Assembly: GCF_035818615.1 (NCBI RefSeq)
Contig: NZ_JAYKZY010000001.1
Location: 7,501 to 71,500 of the forward strand
DNA from: Sphingobium sp. CR2-8
GTDB taxonomy: Bacteria; Pseudomonadota; Alphaproteobacteria; Sphingomonadales; Sphingomonadaceae
Length of the DNA: 64,000 nt
Direction of reading: 5' to 3'
Every line of letters begins with the position of its first letter. Positions within the stretch are counted from its first letter, which is position 1. Positions 13,541 to 21,669 of this stretch are shown here, piece by piece. A program made the translations under genes and the position numbers. The notes beneath the pieces were generated by a model, which worked only from the letters and a program-made list of their open reading frames with translations, was not told the DNA's origin and did not search any database.

Positions 13541-13564
13541 ATCACGCCTCCCTCGCCTGTTCGG

Positions 13565-13610
13565 TTCGAGCTTGTCGAGAACCCAGCGCACCGTTCTCGA
13601 CAAGCTCGAA
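13565..13610. repeat. 18-bp perfect inverted repeat between ligK and ligU
   Basis: Arms of 18 bp (TTCGAGCTTGTCGAGAAC and its complement) flank a 10-nt loop. The core CTTGTCGA resembles the hairpins at 14701-14730 and 46177-46252, indicating one dispersed REP-like family. No T-run follows, so it is not a simple terminator, but it could damp expression of the downstream genes or stabilise mRNA ends. Confidence 0.7.
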
Positions 13611-13627
13611 CAGAACGGAGGTGGGAA

Positions 13628-15697: not shown

Positions 15698-15724
15698 ACC
15701 TTCACCGAACAGCGAAAGCGACAG

Positions 15725-15752
15725 TTGACCACGATCGCGAAAAGGCTATGAT
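15725..15752 (+). promoter_or_regulatory. tracrRNA promoter, derived from a CRISPR repeat
   Basis: TTGACC (15725-15730) and TATGAT (15747-15752) are separated by 16 bp, a good sigma-70-type promoter. Transcription would begin near 15759-15761, at the start of the anti-repeat. From GACC to TATGAT (26 nt) the segment matches the crRNA-sense repeat ungapped at 20 of 26 positions, including GACCACGATC and GG(C/T)TATGAT. Each repeat carries the same arrangement (TGGACC, 16 bp, TATGAT). Confidence 0.72.
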
Positions 15753-15758
15753 GGCCTT

Positions 15759-15835
15759 TCAGAGATCGTGGTCTGGCGGCTAACAAGCAGCTAGTCTGCA
15801 CCAGATAAGGGCGACGCTACGGCGTCGCCTTTTTT
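15759..15835 (+). ncRNA. tracrRNA of the type II-C CRISPR system
   Basis: The anti-repeat at 15757-15784 (TTTCAGAGATCGTGGTC, then TGGCGGCTAAC) is complementary to the first about 26 nt of the crRNA-sense repeat, with a single inserted T and two G-U-type changes near its 3' end. A small GCAG-CTAGT-CTGC hairpin (15787-15799) and a strong terminator hairpin with six Ts (15810-15835) follow. The predicted RNA is about 77 nt. Its position upstream of cas9 on the same strand and the anti-repeat, nexus-like hairpin, terminator order are as in other II-C loci. It should pair with each crRNA, guide RNase III processing and be held by Cas9. Confidence 0.9.
15810..15835 (+). terminator. Rho-independent terminator of the tracrRNA
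   Basis: An 8-bp stem GGCGACGC/GCGTCGCC around TACG is followed by TTTTTT. As in other tracrRNAs, the terminator hairpin is probably also a structural 3' hairpin of the mature RNA. Confidence 0.92.
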
Positions 15836-15848
15836 GCATCCGGCGCCA

Positions 15849-15874
15849 TTCAGAGATCGCAGTCCGACAGCAAC
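15849..15874 (+). repeat. Degenerate CRISPR repeat / second anti-repeat in the cas9 leader
   Basis: TTCAGAGATCG-CAGTCC-GACAGCAAC aligns without gaps to the last 26 nt of the array repeat as written on this strand, with about 20 identities including TCAGAGATCG, GTCC and GCAAC. It lies 13 nt after the tracrRNA terminator and about 257 nt before cas9. The part matching TATGAT in true repeats is lost, so the copy has no repeat promoter. It may be a decayed array end or a duplicate of the tracrRNA anti-repeat. Confidence 0.7.
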
Positions 15875-15888
15875 TAGCTATGATTCAG

Positions 15889-15905
15889 ATTGCTGATTCA
15901 GCAAT
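15889..15905. promoter_or_regulatory. Palindrome in the cas9 leader
   Basis: ATTGCTGA-T-TCAGCAAT: 8-bp arms around a single central base, directly after the degenerate repeat. The rest of 15906-16130 is noticeably A/T-rich and holds the cas9 leader. No T-run follows, so an operator for cas9 or for an antisense transcript is more likely than a terminator. Confidence 0.4.
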
Positions 15906-16130
15906 ATGGTTTGGCCAGTTGGATGGGTGGTGCATCCGCATACAGCACCACCCATATCGTAAGTAGCAGACGGGATTTGCGGATGCCCTTCGTCACTCTT
16001 GATACCATCTTCAATAGCGACAGCCAGATCAATGTCAATGCCATAGCTAATGATTATTAAATCAGCCAATCTGGATGCTATGCATATTGCTTCGTTTTCG
16101 GCACGATGCACATATGGATCGGACGGGGGT

Positions 16131-19100
16131 ATGATGAAAATACAGACAAGACTTGGCCTGGATCTGGGCACCAACAGCCTGGGCTGGTGCCTCTACACCC
16201 TCGACGCGCACGGCAATGCCAACGGCATAAAGGGTATCGGCGTCCGTATCTTCAGCGATGGCCGTCATCCCATTTCGAAGGACTCGCTTGCCGTCGAACG
16301 CCGCAATGCGCGGGCCATGCGGCGGCGGCGCGATCGCTATCTGCAACGCCGCTCCGCCCTGCTGGCTGCCCTGATCGTCCATGGCCTGATGCCGCAGGAT
16401 GCCGCCCAGGCGCGGGCGCTGGTCGGTCTCGACCCCTATGACCTGCGTGTCCGCGCGCTGACTGACAAACTGCACCCCCATGAAATCGGCCGCGCGCTGT
16501 TTCATCTCAACCAGCGCCGCGGCTTCAAGAGCAATCGCAAGGCCGACCGCCGCACCAGCGACAAGGACGCCGGCGTCGTCAAGCAGGCCGAGATCGAACT
16601 GGACCGCGCCATGGCGGAGGCTGGGGCGGACACGCTGGGCCAGTTTCTCCATGGCCTGGCAACCAAGCGGGTCAGGATGGCGGCCGACGGCAGCGGCTAT
16701 GATTTCTATCCGCAACGCCGCCATTATGAATATGAATTCGATTCCATATGGGCGGCGCAGGCGGTTCATCATCCTGCACTGCTGAACGAAACCGCCCGCG
16801 CCCATATCCGCAGCATCATCTTTCGCCAGCGCCCTCTGGCAGCCCAAAAGGTCGGCCAATGTACGTTCCTGGAAGAAGAGCGCCTGCCAAAGGCGCACCC
16901 TCTCTTCCAGGAACGTCGCCTTTATGAAGAGGTGAACCAGCTGCGCATTCGCGAGAGCGGCGAAGAACGCCCGCTCAGCCGCGACCAATGCGACACCGTC
17001 ATCCTGGCCCTGAAATCGAAAAAGAAGATCAGTTTCGAAACCCTGCGCAAGCGCGTCCTGAAACTGTCCGACGACGCGCGGTTCAACAAGGAAAGCGAAG
17101 CGCGCAAGGAGTTGCTGGGCGACGAGATCCATGTTGCCATGAGCCATGCGAGCCGCTTTGGCGGGCGGTGGGGGGATTTCCCCGAAGACGCGCGCTGGCA
17201 GATCATTCGCCAGGTCATGGAGGAGGAAAGTCACGACGCCCTGCTCGGATGGCTACAATCCCAATGGTTTGTGGACGAAGCCACCGCGCAGGCGATCGCG
17301 GCGGTCCATCTGCCCGAAGGCCATGGCCGCCTGGGCGAAACCGCCTCCCGCCTGATCCTTACCGAACTCAAGCGGGACGTGATCGACTATGACGAAGCGG
17401 TGCGGCGCCATGCCGACCTGCTGGGCCATCATTCGGATCGACGGCCCGAAGAGGGGCGCGACACCCTCCCCTATTATGGCGAAATCCTGGACCGCGACCT
17501 GAAACCGGGGAGTAACGATCCGGCCGATCCGCCCGAAATCCGTTTCGGCCGGATCAGCAACCCGACCGTCCATATCGGCCTTAACCAGGTGAAGGCGGTG
17601 ATCAACGACATCATCGCCGTTCATGGCCGACCCGACCAGATCGTCGTGGAAATCGCGCGCGAGTTGAAACAGAATGACAAGCAGCGCGAAGCCGCCAACA
17701 AAAGGATCGCCGCCAACACGCGCGCGGCCGAAGAGCGATCGAAAATCCTGCGGGATCACGGAATCGAGGATAATGGCGCCAACCGCATGCGGCTACGCCT
17801 GTGGCAGGAACTCAGCCCCGCCAGCGTCATGGATCGCTATTGCCCCTATTGCGGTACGCTGGGCAAGACCATCGGCATCCGTCAGCTCTTCCACAGCAGC
17901 GAAGTCGATATCGACCATATCCTGCCCTATTCCCGCACGCTGGACGACGGCCCGGCCAACAAGGTCGTCGTCCATACCGCCTGCAACCGGCAGAAGGGGA
18001 ACCAGACCCCCCATGAAAAATGGGGCCATGATCCCGATCGCTGGGACGCGATATTGGACCAGGTGTCGCGCCTGCATAGCGCCAAGCAGTGGCGCTTCCT
18101 GCCCAACGCCATGGACCGCTTCGACAAGGAGGGCGGCTTTGCCGAACGCCAGCTCAAGGACACGCAATATCTGTCGGTGCTGGCGGGCAAATATCTGGGC
18201 AGCCTCTACGGCCGCGACGAAGGACGTCGCGTCTATGTGATCCCGGGGCAGATGACGTCGATGCTGCGGCGCATATGGGGCCTCAATTCCATCCTCGGCG
18301 ATCATAATCAGGTCGTGAACAAGCATAGCGATGCGCCCAAGAACCGGCTCGACCACCGCCATCACGCGCTGGACGCTGCGGTCACGGGCGTCACGACCCA
18401 TGCCCTGATCCAGAGGATCGCGGCCGCCGCCGGCCGTGCGGAGCAGGATAATCTGGATCGCCTTTTCACCGATCTGGAACATCCCTGGCCCGGCTTTCGC
18501 GATGCGCTGAAGGCGGCGCTCGACAGGACGGTGGTCAGCCATCGCCCCGACCACGGATTGAAGCCCAAGGCGGCATTGCACCAATCCGCCCCGCCGCACA
18601 TGACTGCGGGCGCGCTCCACAATGATACCGCTTATGGTTTTACGGGTCAGGTCAACGCCAATGGCGTGCCGATGGTCGTGCATCGCGTGGCGATCGGGTC
18701 GATCAAGCCGGAACATCTGATCGACGGCGGCACGGGCCGCAGTCCCGCCTGGATCGTCGATGACGCGCTGCGCAAAGCCCTGGCCGTCGCAACCCATGGG
18801 AAGGCCGACAAGACGGCCTTCGCTCATGCCATCCGCGCCTTCGCCAAGACCCATCCGCAATTCCAGGGCATCCGTGGCGCGCGCATCATCGAAGGACTGA
18901 ACCTGATCCCGGTCCGCGATCGAACCGGCAAAGTCTATAAAGGCTATAAGGGCGATTCCAATTATCGATACGACATATGGGAAATGCCCGACGGCAAATG
19001 GGTGACAAGCTGGAAGGACGCGCAGGGCCAGACGCAATCGGGCACCCTATCGATGTTCGACATGCACCAAACCGGTGAGGAACGTCGCCCCCACCCCGCC

Positions 19101-19400
19101 GCGCGAAAGGTCTTGAGCCTGCATCGCAACGACGTGCTCGCCTTCGATCGCGGCAGCGGGCGCGAATTGATGCGCGTGGTCAAATTTTCACCTGCCCAGC
19201 TTGCGCTCGCCCCGCTGCATGAAGCCCATGTCGATGCGCGCAGCCGGGACAAGGAATCGGGCTTCCGCTACACCCTCCCCGCCCCGTCCCGGCTGAAGGA
19301 ATGGCAGGCGCGACAGGTTATCGTGGATGCCTTGGGCCGGGTCCGCGACCCCGGCTTTCCGGCGCGCACGGCCCGCCGCAAGACAGGGGCACAACCCTGA
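16131..19400 (+). CDS. cas9: CRISPR-associated endonuclease Cas9, type II-C
   Basis: 1089 residues from the ATG at 16131, or 1088 from the adjacent ATG at 16134; GGACGGGGG lies just upstream. Numbering from 16134: RuvC-I RLGLDLGTNSLGWCL with D10; an arginine-rich bridge helix (RRNARAMRRRRDRYLQRRS); RuvC-II IVVEIAREL with E506; a CPYC pair; HNH DIDHILPYSRTLDDG with H595, then CNRQKGNQ; RuvC-III HHALDAAV with H744 and D747. The C-terminal about 300 residues form the PAM-interacting region. The size is close to the 1082-residue Neisseria enzyme, and the absence of csn2 and cas4 fits subtype II-C. All nuclease residues are present, so it should be active. The PAM cannot be read from this sequence. 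Confidence 0.97.
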   Translation: MMKIQTRLGLDLGTNSLGWCLYTLDAHGNANGIKGIGVRIFSDGRHPISKDSLAVERRNARAMRRRRDRYLQRRSALLAALIVHGLMPQDAAQARALVGLDPYDLRVRALTDKLHPHEIGRALFHLNQRRGFKSNRKADRRTSDKDAGVVKQAEIELDRAMAEAGADTLGQFLHGLATKRVRMAADGSGYDFYPQRRHYEYEFDSIWAAQAVHHPALLNETARAHIRSIIFRQRPLAAQKVGQCTFLEEERLPKAHPLFQERRLYEEVNQLRIRESGEERPLSRDQCDTVILALKSKKKISFETLRKRVLKLSDDARFNKESEARKELLGDEIHVAMSHASRFGGRWGDFPEDARWQIIRQVMEEESHDALLGWLQSQWFVDEATAQAIAAVHLPEGHGRLGETASRLILTELKRDVIDYDEAVRRHADLLGHHSDRRPEEGRDTLPYYGEILDRDLKPGSNDPADPPEIRFGRISNPTVHIGLNQVKAVINDIIAVHGRPDQIVVEIARELKQNDKQREAANKRIAANTRAAEERSKILRDHGIEDNGANRMRLRLWQELSPASVMDRYCPYCGTLGKTIGIRQLFHSSEVDIDHILPYSRTLDDGPANKVVVHTACNRQKGNQTPHEKWGHDPDRWDAILDQVSRLHSAKQWRFLPNAMDRFDKEGGFAERQLKDTQYLSVLAGKYLGSLYGRDEGRRVYVIPGQMTSMLRRIWGLNSILGDHNQVVNKHSDAPKNRLDHRHHALDAAVTGVTTHALIQRIAAAAGRAEQDNLDRLFTDLEHPWPGFRDALKAALDRTVVSHRPDHGLKPKAALHQSAPPHMTAGALHNDTAYGFTGQVNANGVPMVVHRVAIGSIKPEHLIDGGTGRSPAWIVDDALRKALAVATHGKADKTAFAHAIRAFAKTHPQFQGIRGARIIEGLNLIPVRDRTGKVYKGYKGDSNYRYDIWEMPDGKWVTSWKDAQGQTQSGTLSMFDMHQTGEERRPHPAARKVLSLHRNDVLAFDRGSGRELMRVVKFSPAQLALAPLHEAHVDARSRDKESGFRYTLPAPSRLKEWQARQVIVDALGRVRDPGFPARTARRKTGAQP

Positions 19401-19444
19401 TCCGGCCTTTCCAGCCACGCTAGGACGACAAAGGGAGTAGCATC

Positions 19445-20368
19445 ATGGATCGGATCGTCGACATAGCGACCGATGGCCGTCACTTGTCCGCGCTCCGTGG
19501 CTTCCTCATCGTATCGCAGGATCATGCCGAGGTCGGCCGTGTGCCGCTGGACGATGTCGCGGCCGTGATCGTGCATGCCCATGGCGTCACCTGGTCGACC
19601 AACCTCATCGTCGCCCTGGCGAAACGCGGCGCCGTGATGCTGCTATGCGGCAGCAACCATGCGCCGGTGGCGATCTGTCTGCCGATCAACGGACACCATG
19701 CCCAAAATGCGCGGATGCGCGCACAATGGGAGGCAGGCAGGCCGCTTTCCAAACAGCTTTGGCGCAGGATCGTGATTGCCAAGATACGCTGGCAGGCGGC
19801 GGTTTTGGACGCCAATGGCATATCCGCGTCCGCCTTCGACCTGCTCGCGCGCCGCGTCGGCTCCGGCGACCCCGACAATGTCGAAGCACAGGCTGCCCGC
19901 CGCTACTGGCCGCTGCTGATGGGAGAGGCATTCCGTCGTGATCGCGATGCCGACGGAGCCAACGCCCTGCTCAATTATGGCTACACGGTCCTGCGATCGC
20001 TATGCGCGCGGGCGGTAGTGGCGTCGGGCCTGCATCCCTCGATCGGGGTGCATCACGCCAACCGCACCAATGCGCTGGCCTTGGCGGACGACCTGATCGA
20101 ACCCTTCCGTCCCCTCGTCGATGCACTGACCCTGCGCCTGATGGCGCGCGGTGTCGAAACGGTTACTCCGGAGGCCAAGCGCGCTTTTGCCGGCCTGATC
20201 GCGCTCGACCTGCCAGGCGCGGACGGCACCACGACCGTGGCCGGCGCCGCCAATCGCGCGGCACAAAGCCTGGCCCGCGCGTTCCAGAGCGGCACCGCCG
20301 CCGACATAGTCCTGCCTACGCCCCCTTCCGCGCTGGAACTGGCGGGCCTGGATTCCCTGCTCGCATGA
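19445..20368 (+). CDS. cas1: CRISPR integrase Cas1
   Basis: 307 residues; ATG preceded by AAAGGGAGTAG. It has the usual type II Cas1 layout: beta-rich N-terminus (LRGFLIVSQDHAEVGRVPLD), VTWSTNLIVALAKRGAVMLL, then the active-site stretch with the metal glutamate in DNVEAQAARRYWPLLMGEAF, and GLHPSIGVHHANRTNALALADDLIEPFR providing the histidine and aspartate. It integrates new spacers with Cas2. It begins 44 nt after the cas9 stop and overlaps cas2 by ATGA, so cas9-cas1-cas2 is one transcript. Confidence 0.97.
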   Translation: MDRIVDIATDGRHLSALRGFLIVSQDHAEVGRVPLDDVAAVIVHAHGVTWSTNLIVALAKRGAVMLLCGSNHAPVAICLPINGHHAQNARMRAQWEAGRPLSKQLWRRIVIAKIRWQAAVLDANGISASAFDLLARRVGSGDPDNVEAQAARRYWPLLMGEAFRRDRDADGANALLNYGYTVLRSLCARAVVASGLHPSIGVHHANRTNALALADDLIEPFRPLVDALTLRLMARGVETVTPEAKRAFAGLIALDLPGADGTTTVAGAANRAAQSLARAFQSGTAADIVLPTPPSALELAGLDSLLA

Positions 20369-20703
20369 GCGCGACCCAACTGAGCGGATATCGGCTGATG
20401 TGGATTTTCGTCATGTTCGACCTGCCGGTCGCCACGAAGGAACAGGCGCGCGCCGCCACCAAATTCCGCGAATTTCTGTTGGACGAAGGTTTTGAGAAAA
20501 GCCAGTTTTCCGTCTATGCTCGCTTCTGCAACGGCAAGGAACAGTTCGAAACCTATATGCGGCGAGTTGAATCGCACCTGCCCGATCGCGGCGACGTCCA
20601 CATCCTCAGTTTCACGGACCGGCAATATGAAAATATCGTGCGATATTCAGGCCAACGCCGCGGTCGGCAACGGAAAAACCCCAATCAGCTCGCCCTATTC
20701 TAA
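20365..20703 (+). CDS. cas2: CRISPR adaptation protein Cas2
   Basis: 112 residues from the ATG overlapping the cas1 stop; the longer open frame upstream is only the shadow of cas1. The ferredoxin-like core LMWIFVMFDLPVATKEQARA carries the conserved aspartate, followed by FRRF-equivalent FREFLLDEGFEKSQFSVYAR and DRGDVHILSFTDRQYENI. The basic C-terminus is RGRQRKNPNQLALF. It forms the Cas1-Cas2 integration complex. The stop lies 72 bp before the first repeat. Confidence 0.96.
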   Translation: MSATQLSGYRLMWIFVMFDLPVATKEQARAATKFREFLLDEGFEKSQFSVYARFCNGKEQFETYMRRVESHLPDRGDVHILSFTDRQYENIVRYSGQRRGRQRKNPNQLALF

Positions 20704-20775: not shown

Positions 20776-21669
20776 ATCATAACCACTCAGAGATCGTGGT
20801 CCAGCGGCAACTTTTTAATTCGCGCGCCGGTCACATCAGAGATCATAACCACTCAGAGATCGTGGTCCAGCGGCAACCCTTCGACCAGTCGCAAATGCGC
20901 GGGCTTCATCATAACCACTCAGAGATCGTGGTCCAGCGGCAACGGATGAAGGATATGGGCTTCGCGCTCGTCGATCATAACCACTCAGAGATCGTGGTCC
21001 AGCGGCAACCATCGGAGCCTACGCCTACTATGTGCTCGAATCATAACCACTCAGAGATCGTGGTCCAGCGGCAACTATTGTTCGCACATAACGAACATTC
21101 AATCAATCATAACCACTCAGAGATCGTGGTCCAGCGGCAACGTAGCGGCGGGCGTTGTTGGTTCGATTATAATCATAACCACTCAGAGATCGTGGTCCAG
21201 CGGCAACAGCGCCCACTTGTTGATCATGGAGACGCAGATCATAACCACTCAGAGATCGTGGTCCAGCGGCAACCAATTCTGCCAGGCAACATAGACCGCC
21301 GCCATCATAACCACTCAGAGATCGTGGTCCAGCGGCAACTTCTTAAACCCCTTCATCCGTATGAAGAAAATCATAACCACTCAGAGATCGTGGTCCAGCG
21401 GCAACTTCTTTAACACCAACGCAATCGCGATCATGATCATAACCACTCAGAGATCGTGGTCCAGCGGCAACGATGAAGCCGGCGCAGTGGTATCGACGAT
21501 AATCATAACCACTCAGAGATCGTGGTCCAGCGGCAACAGGATGCAGCGCTGGGCGACCGGATGCTGGAATCATAACCACTCAGAGATCGTGGTCCAGCGG
21601 CAACTAGCTGCCCGTCTGCTGGAAATCCTCGAAATCATAACCACTCAGAGATCGTGGTCCAGCGGCAAC
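20776..21669 (-). CRISPR. Type II-C CRISPR array, 14 repeats and 13 spacers
   Basis: Fourteen 36-bp repeats start at 20776, 20842, 20908, 20974, 21040, 21106, 21172, 21238, 21304, 21370, 21436, 21502, 21569 and 21634. As written on + they begin ATCATAACCACTCAGAG and end GTCCAGCGGCAAC. I saw no mismatch among them. Spacers are 30 nt except the twelfth (31) and thirteenth (29), and all differ. The crRNA-sense strand is minus, because there the repeat begins with GTTG, as in Neisseria-type II-C repeats, and its first about 26 nt pair with the tracrRNA. The 3' end of each crRNA-sense repeat carries TATGAT with TGGACC 16 bp upstream, a possible promoter per unit. Spacers look like mixed-GC coding DNA; their targets cannot be named from here. 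Confidence 0.98.

Follow-up and report, generated by a model that had tools for sequence, protein, structure and literature searches.

The stretch of DNA analysed here, hereafter the window, covers 64 kb of the genome of Sphingobium sp. CR2-8. It holds a type II-C CRISPR-Cas locus, in which cas9, cas1 and cas2, all recognised by their profiles, are accompanied by an array placed directly after cas2, with neither csn2 nor cas4 in between:

16131 to 19400, plus strand: cas9 (start at 16131 or 16134; TIGR01865, 563.9 bits against a cut-off of 100)
19445 to 20368, plus strand: cas1 (TIGR03639)
20365 to 20703, plus strand: cas2 (TIGR01573; start picked by frame and ATG)
20776 to 21669, minus strand (taken as the crRNA sense): CRISPR array, 14 repeats of 36 nt with spacers of 29 to 31 nt

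Read on the plus strand, the array repeat is ATCATAACCACTCAGAGATCGTGGTCCAGCGGCAAC. Type II repeats start with GTT, and the crRNA sense was for this reason assigned to the minus strand. Adjoining cas9 on its upstream side is a tracrRNA gene, with an anti-repeat complementary to the array repeat, a structured tail and a terminator:

15725 to 15752, plus strand: tracrRNA promoter TTGACC-N16-TATGAT (-35 at 15725 to 15730, -10 at 15747 to 15752; 10 of 12 consensus matches)
15727 to 15752, plus strand: R2, a repeat-like copy in crRNA sense, GACCACGATCGCGAAAAGGCTATGAT, resembling repeat positions 11 to 36
15759 to 15784, plus strand: anti-repeat core of the tracrRNA, TCAGAGATCGTGGTCTGGCGGCTAAC
15785 to 15809, plus strand: tracrRNA tail, with the family motif TGCACCAGATAAGG at 15797 to 15810 (tail and core conserved in 86 of 103 loci)
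15810 to 15835, plus strand: tracrRNA terminator, a hairpin GGCGACGC-TACG-GCGTCGCC (15810 to 15829) followed by six T (15830 to 15835)

The fold of positions 15759 to 15836 has a z-score of -4.63. Rfam, run over the window at gathering thresholds, returned no match, and the hairpin at 15810 to 15835 is absent from the list produced by a pattern scan.

The locus from 16131 to 20703 is a mosaic. Its Cas1 is 92 to 93% identical to that of two loci of the same genus (L086 and L088), and the repeat and the tracrRNA resemble those of the same clade. Cas9 shares no more than 59% identity with any relative and falls in a different clade; the final 88 residues are nearer to the clade of L086 and L088. 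Further upstream, positions 13549 to 13626 form an 85% inverted repeat with arms of 34 nt and a gap of 10 nt, typical of a strong intergenic hairpin.

A tracrRNA promoter that looks like a repeat

The first-pass annotation of this DNA had read the tracrRNA promoter as a decayed CRISPR repeat. The alignment on which it relied is correct: positions 15727 to 15752 match the crRNA-sense repeat without gaps at 20 of 26 positions, including GACCACGATC and TATGAT, and the promoter it described there, TTGACC and TATGAT separated by 16 bp, is borne out. It had also placed the start of the transcript at the anti-repeat; our prediction is the same, because the core begins at 15759, some 7 nt past the -10 hexamer.

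When the 100 nt upstream were shuffled 400 times with dinucleotides preserved, 20 of 26 was attained once, so such a likeness is rare by chance. In the whole 64 kb, on both strands and with the array excluded, the only 26-mers with at least 18 identities are this segment and the anti-repeat. Promoters resemble one another anyway, so a stricter test looks at the 16 nt that separate the hexamers and whose sequence is not dictated by promoter function. This interior agrees with the locus's own repeat at 10 of 16 positions, in register (shuffle p = 0.001, a somewhat optimistic value as the segment had been chosen beforehand for its likeness), and together with the 20 of 26 overall this is the pattern of a repeat-derived promoter. 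The CRISPR repeat is itself promoter-like, reading TGGACC-N16-TATGAT, from which TTGACC is a single G-to-T change away. The repeat would thereby carry a weak built-in promoter; as one such change, in the copy facing the anti-repeat, gives TTGACC, the repeat's own promoter would now drive the tracrRNA, and a short tracrRNA would start at the anti-repeat.

The first-pass annotation did not mention that this segment and the anti-repeat also form an inverted repeat, matching at 19 of 23 positions. This suggests another origin, local template switching (quasi-palindrome correction), in which the left arm would have been copied from the neighbouring anti-repeat to give a near-palindrome of 23 nt. 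The left arm fits the reverse-complemented anti-repeat at 19 of 23 positions and the array repeat at 17 of 23; at the four sites where these two differ it has the letter of the anti-repeat at three and that of the array at one, and the pairing AAAGGC/GCCTTT is not found in the array repeat. Against this, the TATGAT end tracks the array repeat. In the window the segment is no less similar to the reverse-complemented anti-repeat than to the array repeat, and either may have been the source of the copy.

The same promoter in relatives

The family yielded Cas9 relatives in 29 of its 397 genomes (E ≤ 1e-40) and the genus in 20 of its 94 (E ≤ 1e-100); among genome contigs they amount to at least 80 named loci. 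From 125 loci, 18 duplicates and 4 with too little upstream sequence were removed, leaving 103, a sample in which counts of loci are not counts of independent events since relatives share ancestry. The tracrRNA tail and the anti-repeat core are recognisable in 86 of these, the other 17 lacking the core as defined by pattern. TTGAC lies 24 to 46 nt upstream of the core in 77 of the 86; with the 9 loci without TTGAC and 11 without a usable repeat of their own set aside, 66 loci entered the promoter test. In this test L124 was given a repeat borrowed from L043; in another part of the analysis L033, L044 and L050 were assigned the repeats of other loci.

The tracrRNA points away from cas9 in 83 of the 86 loci and towards it in three: the window, L095 and L099. 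In the last two it lies behind a tRNA-like sequence, and no match to the second repeat-like element described below (R1) is present. Elsewhere, one genome (G463) without cas9 at E 1e-100 has a stretch, L244, that resembles the tracrRNA tail (query positions 66 to 121, 88%), perhaps an orphan tracrRNA.

Several relatives keep the repeat in their promoter better than the window does. Compared in register with the repeat of the same locus, the interior reaches 14/16 in L151 (Methylopila turkensis), 13/16 in L139 and L175, 11/16 in L147 and 10/16 in L135, as against 10/16 in the window, with lower scores in L047 and L129 (9/16 each) and in L160 (8/16); in L164, where the array was not found, it is 13/16 to the repeat typical of the clade. 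In L151, L139, L147, L175 and L135 the -35 coincides with the TGGACC of the repeat and the -10 with its 3' end, and these better-kept copies lend support to the earlier proposal of a promoter made from a decayed repeat. A second register, displaced by +6, appears in L124 (16/16, to its borrowed repeat), L096 (12/16) and L043 (11/16). With the last TTGAC taken instead (n = 64), loci with at least 9 identities are most numerous at shift 0 (six, followed by four at shifts -22 and +8).

These copies belong to a minority. The test gives p < 0.05 in 6 of 66 loci and p < 0.01 in 4 of 66; 60 of the 66 show no significant trace of the repeat in the promoter, and the mean identity over all loci, 5.18/16 at the right register, barely exceeds the 5.09 at shift -6. 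The distribution is also patchy: in L138, sister of L135 and with a repeat that differs by one base, the interior is down to 7/16 (p = 0.078). That the interior is unrelated in most relatives, although the TTGAC is the same, could speak for plain convergence, in which a sigma-70 promoter would resemble the repeat merely through the promoter-like character of the repeat. This explanation has to face interiors of 10 to 14 out of 16 in six loci, all in one register, besides the shuffles of the window, one in 400 of which reaches 20/26; it is already disfavoured, and we regard it as very unlikely.

Template switching fares somewhat better. The copies of L151 and L139, read by eye, extend beyond the part complementary to the anti-repeat and go on tracking the array repeat there, so that they are copies of the repeat rather than inverted copies of the anti-repeat, and L160, whose promoter is homologous to that of the window (84% over 15725 to 15835), keeps 8/16 to its own repeat. 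As the sole origin it appears unlikely to us, although it may have acted together with copying of the array repeat. The promoter repeat copy is real in a minority of loci, and a crRNA-sense copy of the repeat is very likely the ancestor of the promoter in the window.

The first-pass annotation went further and saw in this segment a direct trace of the birth of the tracrRNA, with an inverted pair of repeats giving rise at once to the promoter and the anti-repeat. The layout fits. The comparison across related loci by which it had proposed to check the idea gives, in most of them, no significant likeness at this place (L138 is one, with its repeat a single base away from that of L135), an outcome that it had itself named as a refutation; with 60 of 66 loci lacking the trace, the copy does not tell how the tracrRNA arose. 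The patchy distribution and the two registers speak against such an origin, as does the fact that copies resemble present-day repeats though the tracrRNA is homologous to that of loci without a copy. We therefore consider this origin distinctly improbable. Because the tracrRNA core and tail extend over Cas9 clades that lack the copy or have it in the +6 register, the copies look like pieces of a tracrRNA leader that were gained or renewed when a tracrRNA was already there.

Probable natural guides in front of a second degenerate repeat

In many relatives, a second degenerate repeat, R1, which starts with GTTGC, lies on the tracrRNA strand upstream of the promoter. Every minus-strand element lying 60 to 450 nt before cas9 was taken as a candidate if no more than 4 substitutions separated it from the repeat over the first 14 nt, which gave 51 elements from 42 of the 103 loci. 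For each, the adjoining 5' sequence was then matched against the cas9-upstream region. For 17 of the 51 a match of at least 11 nt ends at the R1 boundary, and for 20 a match of at least 10 nt, 11 nt being the commonest length. The same guides tried on the regions of other loci reach these lengths in 0.15% and 0.33% of cases, respectively, and anchor points elsewhere in those loci do so in 1.5% and 2.4%. One of the 20, L124, has a long match that is off its true repeat boundary, and it was left out of the PAM-motif and folding analyses.

Past the target, the 19 remaining loci share a PAM-like motif, NGGNATT (G in 17 and G in 15 at positions 2 and 3; A in 13, T in 14 and T in 12 at positions 5, 6 and 7), and in 9 of the 19 the stretch contains TTGA. 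A 10-nt match is absent for 31 of the 51 candidates; when mismatches are allowed and NGG is required, 7 of these 31 (in L110, L114, L115, L096, L132, L035 and one of those in L159) match at a level that no more than 2% of other regions reach. The carriers of guides are spread over the Cas9 tree. Among 37 further loci at the level of the order or class, guide evidence comes only from L192 (12 nt, no NGG) and L175 (10/12, beside AGGCATT). Of 18 long tracrRNAs folded for minimum energy, 12 show the pairing expected of a single-guide RNA, between the start of R1 and the 3' part of the anti-repeat, and 6 do not.

One locus, L136, has both R1 with an 11-nt guide match and, 300 to 400 nt cas9-ward of the anti-repeat, between the tracrRNA and cas9, two well-kept repeats in anti-repeat sense, possibly a mini-array.

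A putative guide and R1 on the other strand

The window has these elements too, arranged differently:

15846 to 15874, minus strand (crRNA sense): R1, degenerate repeat GTTGCTGTCGGACTGCGATCTCTGAATGG, unmentioned in the first-pass annotation
15875 to 15885, minus strand: putative natural guide of 11 nt, AATCATAGCTA, directly 5' of R1
16044 to 16055, minus strand: putative target AATCATTAGCTA (the guide with one T added), 76 bp upstream of the start of cas9
16034 to 16043, minus strand: PAM-like TGGCATTGAC, adjoining the target and overlapping a perfect -35, TTGACA, at 16033 to 16038 on the minus strand

Here the guide and R1 run on the minus strand, convergent with the plus-strand tracrRNA and not fused to it. 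The same unit exists in L127, from Sphingomonas sp. HITSZ_GF, where tracrRNA, terminator and R1 align at 83% with positions 15761 to 15875, the whole lying in the opposite orientation to cas9 relative to the window. As L127 has this unit, the window belongs to a split form, with guide-R1 and tracrRNA convergent. An inversion of the tracrRNA from the usual minus-strand layout was considered as the origin of the window arrangement; the alignment with L127 is better explained by a shared split cassette.

Further examples are scarce. A search of the genus with positions 15715 to 15920 found the tracrRNA in other genomes (18 of 94 matched) and no second tracrRNA-R1 unit; exact GAATCATAGCTANGG was not found in the genome of the window; and the 37 order- and class-level loci, scanned with a repeat profile (best two matches per strand, score at least 12), gave no more split cassettes, a scan in which weak elements could be missed.

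The piece from 15846 to 15885 might be a dead remnant that no longer regulates anything, only promoter and tracrRNA being of consequence, and we give this a little less than an even chance. In favour of a remnant, the guide is split from the tracrRNA and the locus is mosaic; an ungapped target is missing as well, the best being 8 nt without NGG (null 3.3%) or 7/12 with NGG (null 83%). The plus-strand CATAGCTA (16042 to 16049), 8 nt without NGG and with that same null of 3.3%, was tried as a target and is unconvincing. The fit listed above, beside TGGCATT, requires a one-base bulge in the target, near the seed, which may well weaken binding, and it was found after looking. With NGG, a bulged fit of this kind occurs in 0 of 102 other regions and for 11 of 1500 random 11-mers. 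What argues against a remnant is that R1 is conserved with L127, that the L127 guide fits its target at 11/12 beside GGGAACTTGAC, which has NGG, with 0 of 102 other regions as good, and that the window target is followed by the PAM-like motif of the family: with NGGN[AC][TC]T, none of 1500 random 11-mers fits with one edit. Since the guide-R1 piece lies on the other strand, it would, if active, pair with the tracrRNA in trans, as would that of L127.

A proposed leader built from repeats

The reading that we hold to be probable is that a promoter made from a repeat copy drives a short tracrRNA and is part of a leader itself built from repeats, which in relatives includes a guide that would repress cas9 and which is split in the window. 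The sequences themselves show the repeat likeness, the R1 elements, the guide matches and the conserved layout; that the promoter is used, that the RNAs are made and fold in this way in the cell, that cas9 is repressed and how the arrangement evolved is inferred from them. In many relatives the leader would read guide, R1, promoter (sometimes R2), anti-repeat and tail, and its RNA would be a long tracrRNA folding like a single-guide RNA. The guide, of 10 to 13 nt, would take Cas9 to the cas9-upstream region, beside NGGNATT. By analogy with Streptococcus pyogenes (PMC11417352), a pairing of about 11 nt would be too short for cleavage and would leave Cas9 as a repressor, lowering the transcription of cas9 and perhaps that of the guide RNA itself. 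Many relatives thus probably repress their own Cas9. For type II-C systems of Alphaproteobacteria, we lean towards a general formulation: 11-nt guides made from repeats would steer a non-cutting Cas9 to NGGNATT at the cas9 promoter, a neighbouring copy would serve as the tracrRNA promoter, and the split form of the window and L127 would work in trans.

Parts of this picture have counterparts elsewhere. CreR are crRNA-like regulators of cas genes in types I-B, I-E and V-A, made of a degenerate repeat with a partial match to a cas promoter. The split R1 of the window may be of this stand-alone form, with R1 and guide present and a target fit that needs one bulge; it belongs, in contrast, to a Cas9 system, which needs a tracrRNA. 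In the type II-C arrays of Neisseria, promoters lie inside the repeats, with the -10 at the 3' end of each, as here; in the present loci this element would drive the tracrRNA instead.

The closest counterpart is tracr-L of the type II-A system of S. pyogenes. There, guide, repeat-like arm and anti-repeat stand on one strand upstream of the tracrRNA, with an 11-nt match to the cas promoter beside a PAM and a second promoter for the short form (PMC11417352); PMC8730458, which also describes the long tracrRNA of type II-A, gives the match as 9 bp. This tracr-L represses cas9. Many relatives have the one-strand layout of guide, R1 and anti-repeat, and 17 of the 51 candidates match the region upstream of cas9 by at least 11 nt, whereas in the window R1 and the tracrRNA occupy opposite strands, minus and plus respectively. 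The present cases further differ in that they are cas9-cas1-cas2-array loci of Alphaproteobacteria, in that the motif is NGGNATT, partly lying over a -35, and in that the promoter of the short form is sometimes a repeat copy. The scaRNAs of Francisella novicida (II-B) and Neisseria meningitidis (II-C) are likewise Cas9-associated small RNAs with repeat-like parts (PMC13431127); the Neisseria II-C RNA acts there on an mRNA, efeO, and the targets named in that source are other genes or mRNA, whereas here the putative target is a DNA site upstream of cas9. Within the openly accessible literature searched, we recognised no description of natural guides against cas9 in type II-C, nor of a repeat-derived tracrRNA promoter.

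If the proposal is true, natural autorepression by a single guide would extend from type II-A to a broad II-C-like set, and one and the same system would use its repeats twice over, to scaffold a guide and to make a promoter. A group of Cas9 proteins would have a predicted PAM, NGGNATT, derived from its own regulation, and the evolution of tracrRNA leaders would become testable across dozens of loci.
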